The notes under the pieces are model-generated. The model was given only the letters and a program-made list of their open reading frames with translations, was not told the origin of the DNA and made no database searches. The position numbers and the translations under genes are program-made. Below are positions 56,267 through 62,893 of a stretch of DNA of 64,000 nucleotides, piece by piece. The DNA is from Pseudovibrio japonicus (lineage in GTDB: Bacteria; Pseudomonadota; Alphaproteobacteria; Rhizobiales; Stappiaceae), in NCBI RefSeq assembly GCF_014651595.1, contig NZ_BMXE01000003.1:248001-312000 (forward strand), in the 5' to 3' direction. The first letter of the stretch is position 1. Each line of letters begins with the position of its first letter.

Positions 56267-57991
56267 GTGGCGAAAAAAGCTGACAGCTCCTTTCTGAGGC
56301 AGGCTAACTTGAAGCGCAATCATGGCACCAGTGCAATCCGGGTTCGTGGTCCGGGGCGGTCTCGTATCTTCTTCGCAATGACGATATTTGTGATGGTTTA
56401 CGGGGCCATTGCAGGTCGTCTGATCCTGCTTGGTTTGCAGGATGGGAGTCCGGCTGGGAGCTTCCTTGCAGCGCAGAACACTGTGGCGCAATCGCGCCCT
56501 GATATTGTTGATCGCAATGGTGAAATCCTTGCGACCGATATTAAGAGTGCTGCGCTTTACGCCGAGCCGCGAAAGATTCCGGATTCTGATGAGGTCTTTG
56601 ATGGTTTGATCACCGTTTTGCCGGAGCTGGATACGCCTGCAATCAAGAAGCGTCTTGAGAGCAACTCCATGTTCACATGGCTGAAGCGCGAGATCACTGT
56701 TGAGCAGCGTCAGGCCATTCATGCGCTGGGGCTTCCGGGTGTTGGTTTCCGCGAGAGCAATAAGCGGTTTTATCCGGGCGGGCAAACGGTTAGCCATATT
56801 CTTGGTACGGTGAACGTGGACAATCAGGGTCTGTCCGGCATGGAGAAGTATGTCGATCAGGCATGGCTGAAGGACCTGCAGGAGCTGGGCTTTACGCAGG
56901 ACCGGACGATGGAGCCAGTCGCGCTTTCCGTTGATCTGCGTGTGCAGCATGCCGTTCGAGATGAATTGCGTCGATCCATGGAATACTATCAGGCCAAGGC
57001 TGCTATGGGCGTGGTGCTGAAGGTTGATACTGGCGAAGTGATCGCCATGACGTCGCTGCCGGACTTTGACCCGAACAACCGCCAGCAAGCGCTTGAGAAG
57101 AAGCGTATGAACCGTGTGACCGGCGGTGTGTTCGAGATGGGGTCGATCTTTAAGGGTATCACCATTGCAATGGCGCTGGATAGCGGCAAGGTGAAGCTGG
57201 AAGATGGGTTTGACGCAACCAAGCCTATCCGCGTTTCAGGTCGTACGATTAACGACTACTACGGCAAGCATCGTGTGCTTACCGTGCCCGAGGTCTTCGT
57301 TTACTCCTCCAATATTGGCACCATCAAAATTATGCAGAAGGCGGGCATTGAGGAACAAAAGAAGTTTCTGGAAAGGCTGGGCCTGACTGAAAAGTTGCAT
57401 ACCGAGATGCCGGGTGTTGCCAAGCCTTTGCTTCCGCCTAAGTGGAATGAGCTTGCAGCTATGACTATTTCGTTTGGTCACGGCCTTGGCATTACACCGC
57501 TGCAAATGGCAGTGGCCGGTGCAACACTGGTGAATGGCGGCAAATATCTTGAGCCAACCTTCCTTCCTCGTAGTCAGGAAGAGGCTGACAAGCTTGCCAA
57601 GCAGGTTATCAAGCCGGAAACCAGTGAGATCCTTCGCTACCTGAACCGAGAGAATGTAAAGCGTGGCTCGGGTCGGCGGGCGGCTGTGGCAGGTTATGAT
57701 GTTGGTGGTAAAACAGGAACAGCGCAAAAGGTGGTGAATGGTCGTTATATTGAGGGCCTTTACCTGAACTCCTTCATGTCGGCGTTCCCCATATCCAATC
57801 CCCAGTACCTTGTTTTGATTTTGTTGGATGAGCCGCAGAAAGTAGAAGGGCAACATTTTGCCACCGCCGGGTGGAATGCTGTACCAACTACGGCATCTGT
57901 TATCCGCAGAATTGCACCAATGCTCGGCGTGGTGCCTGATTTTGTAGATGACGCAGAGACAATTCCGGTTTCCTATCAGAGCCGAAACTAA
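56267..57991 (+). CDS. ftsI: Peptidoglycan DD-transpeptidase FtsI (PBP3)
   Basis: A 574-residue class B penicillin-binding protein that crosslinks septal peptidoglycan. One membrane anchor (MTIFVMVYGAIAGRLILLGL, about 38-57), the dimerisation domain (RPDIVDRNGEILATDI) and the transpeptidase domain with Ser293-I-F-Lys296, Ser347-S-Asn349 and Lys482-T-Gly484 are all intact. GTG start preceded by AAGGGAGGGG. Part of the dcw operon, 11 bp after ftsL. Confidence 0.95.
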   Translation: MAKKADSSFLRQANLKRNHGTSAIRVRGPGRSRIFFAMTIFVMVYGAIAGRLILLGLQDGSPAGSFLAAQNTVAQSRPDIVDRNGEILATDIKSAALYAEPRKIPDSDEVFDGLITVLPELDTPAIKKRLESNSMFTWLKREITVEQRQAIHALGLPGVGFRESNKRFYPGGQTVSHILGTVNVDNQGLSGMEKYVDQAWLKDLQELGFTQDRTMEPVALSVDLRVQHAVRDELRRSMEYYQAKAAMGVVLKVDTGEVIAMTSLPDFDPNNRQQALEKKRMNRVTGGVFEMGSIFKGITIAMALDSGKVKLEDGFDATKPIRVSGRTINDYYGKHRVLTVPEVFVYSSNIGTIKIMQKAGIEEQKKFLERLGLTEKLHTEMPGVAKPLLPPKWNELAAMTISFGHGLGITPLQMAVAGATLVNGGKYLEPTFLPRSQEEADKLAKQVIKPETSEILRYLNRENVKRGSGRRAAVAGYDVGGKTGTAQKVVNGRYIEGLYLNSFMSAFPISNPQYLVLILLDEPQKVEGQHFATAGWNAVPTTASVIRRIAPMLGVVPDFVDDAETIPVSYQSRN

Positions 57992-58005
57992 ACAGGAGAT
58001 TTTGA

Positions 58006-58086
58006 ATGAGGCGAAACACGGAGAATTTGGGGAAATTTAAAGAGAAGTTTTCCCTTCGACCGGTTTGCCACATTCATGTCTCATAG
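58006..58086 (+). CDS. Possible 26-codon leader ORF before murEF
   Basis: In the 113-bp gap after ftsI, AGGAGAT stands 5 nt before an ATG opening a 26-codon frame (starts MRRNTENLGKFKEKFSLRPV) that ends 18 bp before the murEF ATG. murEF itself lacks a clear ribosome site, so reinitiation after this leader is conceivable. It may also be the remains of an upstream start. No family recognised. Confidence 0.3.
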   Translation: MRRNTENLGKFKEKFSLRPVCHIHVS

Positions 58087-58104
58087 GCCGGACATATCGA
58101 CGCC

Positions 58105-61100
58105 ATGTTGCTTAAAGACCTTACAAAACAAGAGATAGACGCTGCTGCAGGCGATGGGCCCGACAGTGCTGGCGCTCTCACCATTTCGGGGCTTACTGCT
58201 GATAGTCGGGCAGTTGAGCCTGGTTTTGTTTTTGCTGCCCTGCAGGGCGCGAAAGTGGATGGTGCCGAGTTTATCGAACAAGCCGTCACGGCGGGCGCTG
58301 CTGCCATCTTGATTGATGCGGAGCGCGTTACCGATGATATCCGCGAACAGGCCAAGCAGGTTCCGCTGATTGCTGCGCCGGATGCGCGACACGAACTTGC
58401 CCTGATGGCTGCAGCTTTTTCCGGCAATCAGCCGGAGAAGATGGTTGCTGTGACCGGAACTGCGGGCAAGACCTCTGTTGCGGTGTTCGTGCGGCAGATC
58501 TTTGAATATGCCGGGCTGGTTTCTGCCAGTTTGGGGACGATTGGTACCGTCACCTCTACAGGGCAAAGCTATGGTGGCCTGACTACGCCTGATCCGGTCT
58601 CCTTGCATGAAGACCTGAAGCGTCTGGCTGAGGATGGGATTACCCATGCGGCGATGGAAGCCTCCAGCCATGGGTTGGATCAGCATCGTCTGGATGGTGT
58701 ACGCATTTGTGCGGCAGGCTTTACCAATCTTGGCCGTGATCACATGGACTACCATTCGACGGTGGAAGAGTACCTGCAGGCAAAACTGCGGTTGTTCCGT
58801 GATTTGCTGCCGGATGATGGTGTGGTCGTTATTGATCCGGAAGCGCAGTTTGCGGACCGGGTTCTGGAGGTTGCCAAAGAGCGCGGTCTGAAGACCTTTA
58901 CTGTTGGTGTTCTTGGTGAGGACCTGAAGGTTCTCAGTGTTCAACCGGACGGGTTCAGCCAGGTTCTGGAGCTGGAAACGGCTGAGGGCGTGTTTTCTGT
59001 TGCTTTGCCGCTGGCAGGTGATTTTCAGGTGAGCAATGCGTTGATCGCAGCTGGTCTTGCTATCTGTGCTGGCGTGCCCCTGCAAACGGCTTTGGAAGCC
59101 CTGATAGTTTTGCGTGGTGCGCCGGGCCGGATTGAGCATGTGGGCACCCGTGAGAACGGCGCTCTTGTGTTTGTCGATTACGCTCACAAACCAGAAGCGC
59201 TGGAAAATGTGCTTGCTGCCTTGCGTCCGTTTGCGGCGGGTCGTCTGATCAATGTGTTTGGCTGCGGTGGTGATCGCGATGCGGGCAAGCGTCCGTTGAT
59301 GGGTGAGATCTCGGCGCGTCTTGCTGATGTGTCCATCGTGACCAATGATAATCCGCGCACAGAAGACCCCGACAAGATCCGCGAGGAGATTGTTGCTGCG
59401 TGTCCTGCTGCGTTGGAGATCGGAGACCGGGCGCTGGCAATTCACCAGGCGGTGAAGATGCTTCAGGAAGGGGATGTGCTGTGTGTGGCTGGCAAGGGCC
59501 ACGAAACAGGGCAGATTATCGGGACTGAGGTTCATCCGTTCTCTGATCACGAGGAAATTTTAAAGGCGCTTGCAGAGGTTTCAGATGGAACCGAAGCAAC
59601 AGCTGCTCCTGAGGGGGATTTGCCAGAGATCAGTCTTGATCTGGATGAGATGGATCTTCTCGGCGATGAAGCTGATGAGGTAGCTGCTGCAGAAGCGCTG
59701 GATGATGATGATTTGCTGGCGGCTGTTCAATCCGGTGTTGAGGAGCTTGAGGCAGAGGTGCCGATAAATCCTGATCATAAGCGGGACAGCGAGGAAGAAG
59801 ACTGGCTGGCGCTAGAAGAAGGTGTTCTTGGCGCTGATGAGCTGGCTGATGCGGAGCTGTCTGATGTCGAGAGCCATGATCCAGACTTTGGAAAGGACGG
59901 CTTCCCGGTTGTTGCGGAAGATACGCCTGAAGCGCTTGAAGACGAGCTGCTGAGCGATCTTGCGGCTATTGAAGCTGAGGCAGAAGCGGAACCGGAAGTC
60001 GAAGCAGTAGCAGAAGCGGAGAACGTCAAGGAGTCGGAAGTAGGCTCTGAGGCGGATGCAGATGCATTTCCTGCGGATGACGCTCTGGAAGAGGTTGCTC
60101 CCGAGGGCTCAGAGGATGTATCGCAGTCCACTGGGGAGGAGGAGCAGGAGAGTTCAAAAGATCAAGGCAGTTCAACTGCTTCTGAAGAACTGTCCCGCAT
60201 GCCGAAGATTGTTGCTTCTGAGGGATTAAAGCTAGAAAAAACACATCGCAGGTCAGCAATCGACAAGCCTGACTGGACTATCGTCCCCCATATCAACCTA
60301 TTGGATCCGGAAATTAAGTCGGAATATGAGCGGCAAATGATTGAACTGCCTGAAATAGATCGTGGGCCGCTATGGCAGCTTGCTGATTTTCTGGAGGCGG
60401 TAGATGGGGATGTTCACGGTGATCTAAGTGATGACATAACCGGAATTTCCATTGATAGCCGGGAAATTCAGCCCGGAGAGGCCTTCTTTGCGATTAAGGG
60501 GGAGAATTTCGACGGTCACGCGTTTGCTGGCGCTGCCCTTGAGGATGGCGCTGCTGTTGCTGTTGTTGCGCGCGACAAGCTGGATGAGCTGCCTGAAGAT
60601 GGTCGCTATGTGGCTGTCGATGACGTGCTTAAAGCGTTGGAGCGCCTTGGTGTTGCTGCTCGCGCACGTTCCAAGGCACGGATCATTGCGGTGACTGGTT
60701 CGGTCGGTAAGACGGGCACGAAGGAAGCTTTGCGGCTGTGTCTTTCCAAATCCGGCCTCACCCATGCGCCTGTGGCGAGCTTTAACAACCATTGGGGCGT
60801 TCCGCTGACACTGGCACGCATGCCTGCGGATACTGAATTTGCTATCTTCGAGATCGGCATGAACCATCGCGGTGAGATTACACCGCTGGTGAAGATGGTA
60901 CGTCCGCATGTGGCTATTGTGACCACGGTAGAGGCGGTGCATCTGGAAGCGTTTAACTCGGTTGAAGACATTGCCCGTGCAAAGGCTGAGATCTTCACTG
61001 GGATCGAGCCGGGCGGTGTCGCGATCCTTAATCGGGATAATCGCCAGTATGATCTGCTTCGTTATCTTGCCGCTGTGGCTGGTGTGAAGAACATCGTCAG

Positions 61101-61788
61101 CTTTGGCATGCAGCCGGGCGCGCAGTCCGTTGCCAAGAAGGTAGCGGCAAATCCTGATTGTTCCTGCCTGAACGCAAATATTCTGGGGCAGGAAATCTCA
61201 TACAAGATTGGCGCTCCTGGCGCGCACCATGTGATCAACTCTCTGGGTGTGCTGACCGGGGTCATGGAGCTGGGTGCAAACCTTGCCTTTGCTGGTCTTG
61301 CACTGGCGGAAATGTCTGCTCCTAAAGGGCGCGGCGCACAGACTGTTCTTGATGTGAACGGCGGCACAGCTTTGCTTGTTGACGAGAGCTACAACGCCAA
61401 CCCGGCCAGTATGCGGGCAGCTATCAATCTGGTGGCGGGCTTGCCGGTCGTGAAGAATGGCCGCCGCATCGCCGTATTGGGGGATATGCTCGAATTAGGT
61501 GCAGAGTCTGGAGCGTTGCACGCAGACCTTGCTAAGGAGCTGGAGCGCGCCAAGATCGACGTGGTTTATTGTGTGGGTACTCATATGAAGATGCTCTGGG
61601 ACCAGTTGCCTGCGCAGACCAGAGGTGCCTATTCAGAAACCTCCGATGAGTTGGAAAAAGACCTTTTGTCGGAAGTGCGTCCCAATGACATTGTAATGGT
61701 GAAGGGCTCCCTGGGCACCCGGATGGGTCCGCTTGTGGATGCTTTGAAGAAACGTTTTCCTGAACCGGCTTCAACCGGTGAGTCCTGA
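58105..61788 (+). CDS. murEF: Fused MurE-MurF: UDP-MurNAc-tripeptide synthetase and D-Ala-D-Ala ligase
   Basis: One 1227-codon frame contains two complete Mur ligases. MurE (about residues 1-492): ATP loop V116-TGTAGKTS124, HGLDQHRLDGV and D415NPR418, the signature that selects meso-diaminopimelate. MurF (about 754-1227): V863-TGSVGKTGT, FNNHWGVPLTLARMP and the MurF motif D1093ESYNANP. They would add DAP and then D-Ala-D-Ala to UDP-MurNAc-dipeptide in the cytoplasm. In between lie about 260 residues very rich in Asp, Glu and Ala, almost free of Lys/Arg until a non-acidic patch (about 712-752, with VPHINLLDPEIKSEYERQM). Both catalytic parts are full length. The start lacks a clear ribosome site. 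An internal Met near 60199 could allow separate MurF, but no ribosome site precedes it. Confidence 0.93.
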   Translation: MLLKDLTKQEIDAAAGDGPDSAGALTISGLTADSRAVEPGFVFAALQGAKVDGAEFIEQAVTAGAAAILIDAERVTDDIREQAKQVPLIAAPDARHELALMAAAFSGNQPEKMVAVTGTAGKTSVAVFVRQIFEYAGLVSASLGTIGTVTSTGQSYGGLTTPDPVSLHEDLKRLAEDGITHAAMEASSHGLDQHRLDGVRICAAGFTNLGRDHMDYHSTVEEYLQAKLRLFRDLLPDDGVVVIDPEAQFADRVLEVAKERGLKTFTVGVLGEDLKVLSVQPDGFSQVLELETAEGVFSVALPLAGDFQVSNALIAAGLAICAGVPLQTALEALIVLRGAPGRIEHVGTRENGALVFVDYAHKPEALENVLAALRPFAAGRLINVFGCGGDRDAGKRPLMGEISARLADVSIVTNDNPRTEDPDKIREEIVAACPAALEIGDRALAIHQAVKMLQEGDVLCVAGKGHETGQIIGTEVHPFSDHEEILKALAEVSDGTEATAAPEGDLPEISLDLDEMDLLGDEADEVAAAEALDDDDLLAAVQSGVEELEAEVPINPDHKRDSEEEDWLALEEGVLGADELADAELSDVESHDPDFGKDGFPVVAEDTPEALEDELLSDLAAIEAEAEAEPEVEAVAEAENVKESEVGSEADADAFPADDALEEVAPEGSEDVSQSTGEEEQESSKDQGSSTASEELSRMPKIVASEGLKLEKTHRRSAIDKPDWTIVPHINLLDPEIKSEYERQMIELPEIDRGPLWQLADFLEAVDGDVHGDLSDDITGISIDSREIQPGEAFFAIKGENFDGHAFAGAALEDGAAVAVVARDKLDELPEDGRYVAVDDVLKALERLGVAARARSKARIIAVTGSVGKTGTKEALRLCLSKSGLTHAPVASFNNHWGVPLTLARMPADTEFAIFEIGMNHRGEITPLVKMVRPHVAIVTTVEAVHLEAFNSVEDIARAKAEIFTGIEPGGVAILNRDNRQYDLLRYLAAVAGVKNIVSFGMQPGAQSVAKKVAANPDCSCLNANILGQEISYKIGAPGAHHVINSLGVLTGVMELGANLAFAGLALAEMSAPKGRGAQTVLDVNGGTALLVDESYNANPASMRAAINLVAGLPVVKNGRRIAVLGDMLELGAESGALHADLAKELERAKIDVVYCVGTHMKMLWDQLPAQTRGAYSETSDELEKDLLSEVRPNDIVMVKGSLGTRMGPLVDALKKRFPEPASTGES

Positions 61789-61798
61789 GGTTGAATAA

Positions 61799-62893
61799 AT
61801 GCTATATTTGCTGGCGGAGCTGTCAGGGGTTTATCCTTCCCTATCCGCGCTGAATGTTTTCAAATACATTACGTTCCGTACCGGCGGCGCGATCATGACT
61901 GCGTTGTTATTTGTGTTTTTGTTTGGCCCACGCATCATTGATGCGTTGCGTTTGCGTCAGGGACATGGACAGCCCATTCGTGAAGACGGACCTCAGAGCC
62001 ATCTGCTGACAAAAAAGGGAACGCCAACCATGGGCGGCCTGATGATCCTTTCCGGGATGATCGTGGCAACGCTGCTGTGGGCTGATCTTCGCAACCCTTA
62101 CACCTGGATCGTGCTGGGTGTGACCGTTGGGTTTGGTCTTATCGGCTTTTATGATGACTATCTGAAGGTCTCCAAGTCCTCGCATAAAGGCTTTGGCGGG
62201 AAGGCGCGTCTTGGGCTGGAATTTCTGATCGCCGGTGTTGCAGCGTTTGCGGTGACGCTTCTGGATTCCGAGCCGTTTTCCACCAGCATTGGTTTTCCGT
62301 TCTTTAAAGAGTTGACGCTGAACCTTGGTTTGTTCTTCATCCCATTCGCAGCCTTTGTTGTTGTTGGCGCGGGCAATGCGGTGAACCTGACCGATGGTCT
62401 TGATGGTCTTGCCATTGTGCCGGTTATGATTGCGGCGGCTTCCTTTGGTCTGGTAGCGTACCTGACGGGTAACGCGGTGTTTTCGAGTTATCTGCAGATC
62501 CACCATGTGGCGGGCACGGGTGAGCTTGCCGTCTTGTGCGGTGCGGTGATTGGGGCTGGTCTCGGGTTCCTGTGGTTCAACGCCCCGCCTGCTGCGATCT
62601 TTATGGGTGATACGGGCTCTCTTGCTCTAGGCGGTATGCTGGGTGCAATTGCGGTTGCGACTAAGCACGAGATTGTTCTGGCGATCATTGGCGGTTTGTT
62701 CGTGCTGGAAGCGGTGTCTGTGATTGTGCAGGTGGCGTCGTTCAAGGTGACCGGTAAGCGCGTGTTCCGCATGGCGCCTATTCACCACCATTTTGAGCAT
62801 CTGGGCTGGACCGAAAGCCAGGTGGTTATTCGTTTCTGGATCATTGCTGTCGTTCTTGCGCTGGTTGGCCTTGCCACGCTGAAGCTGCGCTAG
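61799..62893 (+). CDS. mraY: Phospho-MurNAc-pentapeptide translocase MraY
   Basis: A 364-residue ten-helix membrane enzyme that makes lipid I from UDP-MurNAc-pentapeptide and undecaprenyl phosphate. Landmarks: [20 protein letters not shown] (catalytic Asp pair), [14 protein letters not shown] and [12 protein letters not shown], then HHHFEHLGW of the cytoplasmic loop ([12 protein letters not shown]). It starts 10 bp after murEF and uses the product of MurF directly. Confidence 0.96.

Follow-up and report, generated by a model that had tools for sequence, protein, structure and literature searches.

Why would a bacterium make the ligases MurE and MurF as a single chain and set about 265 residues, many of them acidic, between the two enzymes? 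The question is raised by a 64,000-nucleotide stretch of the Pseudovibrio japonicus genome (contig NZ_BMXE01000003.1, positions 248,001 to 312,000; hereafter, the window), in which one gene, here called murEF, occupies positions 58105..61788 of the forward strand. It touches on an open question, namely whether Mur enzymes of the cytoplasm act together in a complex. The answer that we favor, with a probability of roughly 0.55, is that the product is a bifunctional MurE-MurF held by a disordered acidic tether that serves as an electrostatic and entropic spacer, and that selection acts on the charge of this tether rather than on its sequence or length.

Two complete ligases in one reading frame

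The murEF gene begins with ATG, its coordinates include the stop, and its 1227 codons, uninterrupted by any internal stop, encode a protein with a calculated mass of 129.9 kDa. The MurE part (residues 1–490; 58105..59574, forward strand) carries the P-loop GTAGKTS at residue 118 and DNPR at residue 415, the latter being the meso-diaminopimelate motif. The MurF part (residues 756–1227; 60370..61785, forward strand) carries the P-loop GSVGKTGTK at residue 865, was modeled by AlphaFold2, and has the MurF structure 4qf5 as its best fold match. Pfam found the three Mur ligase domains in two copies each, and both halves scored above the NCBIfam cut-offs (given in brackets) of their own families: 524.3 bits for TIGR01085 (257.3) and 707.8 for NF001124 (476) in MurE, and 501.9 bits for TIGR01143 (288.6) and 738.2 for NF010693 (544) in MurF. 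The whole protein reached 854.6 bits against the bifunctional family NF008896, below its cut-off of 1023. Two complete ligases thus share one open frame, which is the architecture of a MurE-MurF fusion at the sequence level. Codon 414 (59344-59346), just before DNPR, specifies N in the window's protein and D in eight close relatives.

A search of the genome with the Mur ligase middle domain gave five matches, two in murEF, two elsewhere in the same cluster, and one outside it; from their positions we take the last three to be MurD, MurC, and FolC. No second murE or murF was found by this search, which leaves murEF as the sole source of either ligase that was detected.

A missed stop or a frameshift could in principle have joined two neighboring genes. 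The halves lie on different contigs in two relatives, genome G005 of Pseudovibrio (two contig ends, with the break inside the joint) and G077 of genus g7, so assembly may fail at this place, but the fusion occupies one frame in 15 of the 16 Pseudovibrio genomes sampled (genus g1), in all three genomes of genus g3, and in 13 of 14 of g7. These relatives refute the artefact in practice and confirm that the fusion is not a sequencing error. A first-pass annotation of the window, made from its letters alone, had described a fusion in one uninterrupted frame, and the open reading frame, the Pfam and NCBIfam matches, and the frames of the relatives all bear this out; its suggested search of related genomes recovered the fusion in Pseudovibrio, g3, and g7.

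Distribution, precedents, and origin of the fusion

Our family search covered 87 genomes. In the four other genera (g2, g4, g5, and g6; 54 genomes), 53 genomes had at least one match among the matches listed, in frames of at most 705 residues, and one genome, G017, had none among them. The nearest named loci belong to Pseudovibrio (87% identity over the whole length); among the best 80 of at least 588 named loci, six from Pseudovibrio were fused, and the other 74 had murE and murF in different frames. The nearest relatives with separate genes shared 58–68% identity with the fusion among the matches listed. In Roseibium and Pannonibacter, unlike in the window, murE and murF are adjacent genes in different frames that overlap by 4 nucleotides.

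Fusions with short joints also occur. In an even draw of 145 genomes from the order, MurE was matched in 142, although contig ends truncated the match in a few; the match lay in a frame of at least 945 residues in 14, and 12 of these were fusions, three with long joints (G000, G020, and G021) and nine with only 8–24 residues between the profile-matched ends, while the remaining two, G120 and G161, have separate genes. The nine (loci L152-L157 and L160-L162) come from families f11, f18, f41, and f42 and resemble the window's gene in carrying MurE then MurF in one frame, but their joints contrast with the 265 residues seen here. The opinion that such fusions occur in a few bacteria therefore understates their spread. 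A second even draw, of 145 genomes from the phylum, yielded 135 with a match and three established fusions (G000, G166, and G586), with G564 and G483 as mere candidates. Long frames in eight genomes (G120, G161, G510, G491, G526, G503, G530, and G207) were suspected as fusions and proved on inspection to be separate genes. Among all genomes examined, no long acidic joint was seen outside g1, g3, and g7.

A 2019 study (PMC6420597) reports fused MurE-MurF from Bordetella, Pseudovibrio, Desulfobulbus, and Desulfobacula, so the Pseudovibrio fusion itself is already in print. It describes the Bordetella pertussis protein as active, elongated, and flexible, with a joint of about 20 residues, in line with the short joint stated in the first-pass annotation, and as interacting with MurG, by analogy with which a role for MurG would be plausible here too. 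The two proteins have the same ligases in the same order in one chain and differ in the joint, ~20 residues in B. pertussis and 265 in the window. The best sequence match in the PDB is 8f5d, a multifunctional fusion protein whose entry is titled 'Architecture of the MurE-MurF ligase bacterial cell wall biosynthesis complex'; its chain of 803 residues has no room for a long joint, unlike the window's protein. Judged by titles and abstract openings, in a literature search that covered few subscription journals, no other paper on a MurE-MurF fusion was found among those listed, nor any description of a long acidic joint, its range of lengths, a second lineage, or the non-acidic patch treated below. 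What is new here is thus the long, predicted-disordered acidic joint, whose charge is kept while length and sequence vary, together with its second lineage and the patch.

A gene tree, built from 48 of 53 rows after five near copies had been set aside, placed Pseudovibrio in one clade (100/100) and g3 with g7 in another (100/98), and an approximately unbiased (AU) test rejected a tree forcing all fused rows together (p-AU 0.011). Separate murE and murF pairs overlapped by 4 nucleotides in 60 of 78 loci under a nearest-start rule, and the overlap is common to Roseibium, Pannonibacter, and the outgroups, which makes it probable that the overlap is ancestral and that fusion arose at least twice. 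We infer that the long-joint fusion probably arose independently in two lineages of the family. One ancient fusion that was later split in Roseibium is compatible with the tree alone, but the overlap shared with the outgroups speaks against it.

An acidic joint that keeps its charge

The joint (residues 491–755; 265 residues) consists of 32% D and E and 13% A, with a net charge of −70, and contains the most acidic 100-residue stretch among the 83 frames of at least 150 residues in the window (net −36, the next being −16). Nearly all of this charge lies in residues 491–715 (59575..60249, forward strand; net −66), an acidic tether predicted to be disordered. In a model of residues 27–1226, most of the joint had a predicted local distance difference test score (pLDDT) below 50, 833 of the 1200 residues modeled reached 70 or more, and the predicted template modeling score (pTM) of 0.41 gives no set arrangement of the two ligases. 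Low-confidence helices were predicted at residues 535–548 (59707..59748, forward strand) and 608–625 (59926..59979, forward strand), both in acidic-leucine stretches, and at 735–744. No Pfam domain was found in the joint at E values up to 1. Composition and predicted disorder therefore bear out the proposal of a flexible acidic joint.

The 31 fused proteins compared (15 from g1, the window's included, three from g3, and 13 from g7) have joints of 21–696 residues with 23–40% D and E, 0–6% K and R, and 5–19% proline (6% in the window's protein); net charge was negative in 31 of 31, from −8 to −236, and by eye no stretch was common to all. Tandem AE, PE, and DA dipeptides, with a very long AE tract in G004, point to slippage, and among nine close Pseudovibrio genomes, the window's included, the segment with the AE-type tract (59971..60021, forward strand) had the highest gap share, 0.35. 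In the same nine genomes amino acid identity was 0.88 in MurE, 0.91 in MurF, and 0.44–0.68 in four parts of the acidic joint, and the ratio of nonsynonymous to synonymous divergence (dN/dS) was 0.079, 0.067, and 0.20–0.55, respectively, below 1 throughout. When the codon differences of a single base that involve D or E were counted in the joint, 71 of 139 (51%) exchanged one of these residues for the other, compared with 15–27% expected without selection. Composition is thus kept as the sequence drifts.

From these patterns we infer a spacer. Both ligases would fold normally, and the tether would keep them as a co-synthesized 1:1 pair while preventing these three-domain enzymes from adhering to or obstructing one another, with no fixed geometry. 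On textbook polymer scaling, ~225 acidic disordered residues would place the enzymes roughly 10–15 nm apart. Selection would hold the charge and let sequence and length go, with slippage of repeats altering the length, and in the window's own Pseudovibrio group the last 40 codons of the joint might have acquired an additional function at the DNA or RNA level, perhaps an internal start for MurF. Put modestly, the tether would ensure that the two enzymes are made together, in a 1:1 ratio, and spaced electrostatically. Because MurE releases a small soluble nucleotide, free to diffuse across ~10–15 nm, geometric channelling is unlikely; the idea that the tether channels this product, raised in the first-pass annotation, finds no support in a disordered tether whose length, at 21–696 residues, fixes no geometry.

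A neutral alternative, in which slippage lengthened a tolerated joint without selection, accounts readily for the AE, PE, and DA tracts, for the wide range of lengths, and for the gaps being most frequent in the AE segment. We consider it rather unlikely, given the joint's dN/dS of 0.20–0.55, the negative charge of every joint, and the appearance of long acidic joints in two separate lineages. Several observations nevertheless weigh against the spacer and its double origin. The joint of G006 has just 21 residues, so a long joint is not required in every species. Swaps between D and E take a similar share within the enzymes (32 of 68 in MurE and 21 of 50 in MurF), which means that the joint keeps its charge but does not stand out in doing so. 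An acidic-leucine motif ([DE][DE] followed, directly or after one residue, by L and then L or F) occurred 12 times, compared with 3.6 in shuffles, in representative linkers of g1 (8 of 15) and 20 times, compared with 2.8, in those of g3 and g7 (7 of 16), with dipeptide runs removed, and could indicate partner binding rather than a plain spacer; it was chosen among ten patterns, some of them not enriched, after the sequences had been viewed, and some copies resemble internal duplications, so we treat it as a lead only. As for origin, g3 and g7 are joined to Roseibium and Pannonibacter by an unstarred branch (90/95), and the AU test was made after a first tree had been viewed.

An analogy for such a tether is the linker of PopZ in Caulobacter (PMC9512792), which is likewise disordered and keeps its charge, at −0.28 per residue compared with −0.26 (−69 over 263 residues) in the window's joint. 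That linker is 78 residues long, proline-rich, of kept length, and part of a condensate scaffold, whereas the window's joint has 6% proline, is free in length, and lies between two enzymes; predicted disorder and kept charge are shared with the PopZ linker, kept length and high proline are not, and the likeness is one of analogy only. Natural joints of 8–696 residues offer a ready series for asking how much depends on the spacing of MurE from MurF and on the charge that lies between them.

The non-acidic patch before MurF

The last 40 residues of the joint (residues 716–755; 60250..60369, forward strand) behave differently. The non-acidic patch pointed out just before MurF is real: its net charge is −4, it is kept in all nine close genomes, and its amino acid identity of 0.894 is at the level of the enzymes. 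Its synonymous divergence (pS) was 0.243, compared with 0.51–0.60 in the other segments. None of 20,000 random draws of 40 amino-acid-conserved codons gave so small a value; when contiguous stretches of 40 codons were taken instead from the interiors of 12 genes of the division and cell wall (dcw) cluster, 41 of 3857 did. Since random draws take no account of rates that are correlated locally, and the contiguous windows overlap one another, the latter figure, about 1%, is the fairer. Windows as low as the patch occurred at three places only, namely the patch, ddl, and the 3' part of murF, ahead of mraY, and the starts of rsmH, ftsQ, and murG had even lower pS, partly through gene overlaps. Low synonymous divergence is not a general mark of long joints: among seven sets it was found in the window's group only, where four of the six other sets consist of two sequences each and the set g7 C had 0.17 in its last 40 codons and also 0.17 in MurE. 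An overlapping gene under the patch was rejected, since stop codons interrupt the two remaining forward frames and two of the reverse frames in nine of nine genomes, and the third reverse frame, open in eight, is stopped in G002; nor was a second copy found in the genome that would make the patch a repeated element.

The first-pass annotation had read the patch as a docking peptide, but an internal start, or promoter, for free MurF is likely at least as ready a reading. Recruitment of MurG, MraY, or the divisome would fit the enzyme-level identity of the patch, and in three of six other sets conservation is clearly higher over the 40 residues preceding MurF than in mid-joint (0.77/0.45, 0.68/0.41, and 0.75/0.26), so that the protein sequence may have a role. 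The remaining sets, g7 C (0.82/0.79), the g3 pair (0.34/0.46), and G008/G014 (0.30/0.28), show no clear difference in this direction, and by eye the sequence before MurF differs between lineages, the patch being absent even from six other aligned Pseudovibrio genomes. The patch mostly has pLDDT below 50 with one weak helix, two AlphaFold2 models gave no confident contact with MurE or MurF, and neither a Pfam family nor another copy in the genome was found. Docking would also leave the low synonymous rate unexplained, and we hold it to be improbable.

We tentatively prefer a gene with two products, the full fusion and a free MurF (MIELPEIDRGPLW...) translated from the ATG at codon 745 (60337..60339, forward strand), with the patch as the region of internal translation start, although we regard even this as somewhat doubtful. 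This ATG is present in nine of nine close genomes aligned and in G005, and the messenger RNA near it is the least structured among in-frame ATGs in six of the nine genomes and third in the other three. The free MurF, at 483 residues and about 50 kDa, would have 11 residues before LW, where separate MurF proteins have four in 15 of 21 printed loci, hence a similar product. The low pS of the patch fits such a start, but much of the low-synonymous stretch is found upstream of the ATG, a placement for which a promoter, too, would account, and the still lower values at the starts of rsmH, ftsQ, and murG temper its significance. The Shine-Dalgarno energy at codon 745 (−3.5) is near the background median (−3.05), but it is equally weak at murE (−3.2) and murC (−2.9); other lineages have no comparable kept start. 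The earlier proposal of an internal start near 60199 fails, as the ATG at codon 699 (60199..60201, forward strand) has no Met counterpart in the eight other close genomes, and 60337 is the better candidate. We regard as doubtful the fuller version, in which the patch codes both as peptide and as start signal, fused and free MurF are made in a set ratio after an ancestral overlap was lost, and the tether arose twice. If MurF is indeed also made alone from an internal start, selection would be tuning stoichiometry rather than channelling.

The third possibility, an internal promoter or other DNA or RNA element for murF, mraY, and downstream genes, would account for the low synonymous divergence, and the two other dips within genes of the cluster fall a short way ahead of mraY and ftsQ, which are plausible places for regulation. 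We think it unlikely, however: sigma-70-like promoters, the only type examined, had no match in the patch and three in 57900-62000, compared with 1.8 in shuffles.

The locus lies in the dcw cluster of the window, where by gene order and recall we assign mraZ (from 54391), rsmH, ftsL, ftsI (56267-57991), mraY (from 61799), and murD (from 62907). The dip before mraY, at 61513-61674 (murEF codons ~1137–1190), has very low synonymous divergence and is possibly a promoter or RNA element. Inside ddl, beyond the window, 60 consecutive nucleotides (L123:17693-17752) are invariant in nine Pseudovibrio genomes, ~200 nucleotides before ftsQ, and are perhaps a regulatory site. The gap between ftsI and murE (58006-58104) contains a 26-codon open reading frame (58006-58086) behind AGGAG that ends 18 nucleotides upstream of murE; eight of nine close genomes have the same length and the same last five residues, and the ninth has a 23-codon version starting with GTG. 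A block of 24 invariant nucleotides lies upstream of the murE start in the close genomes, and similar short blocks were seen by eye upstream of murE in other genera of the family. The frame and the block are possibly a leader peptide or a regulatory element.

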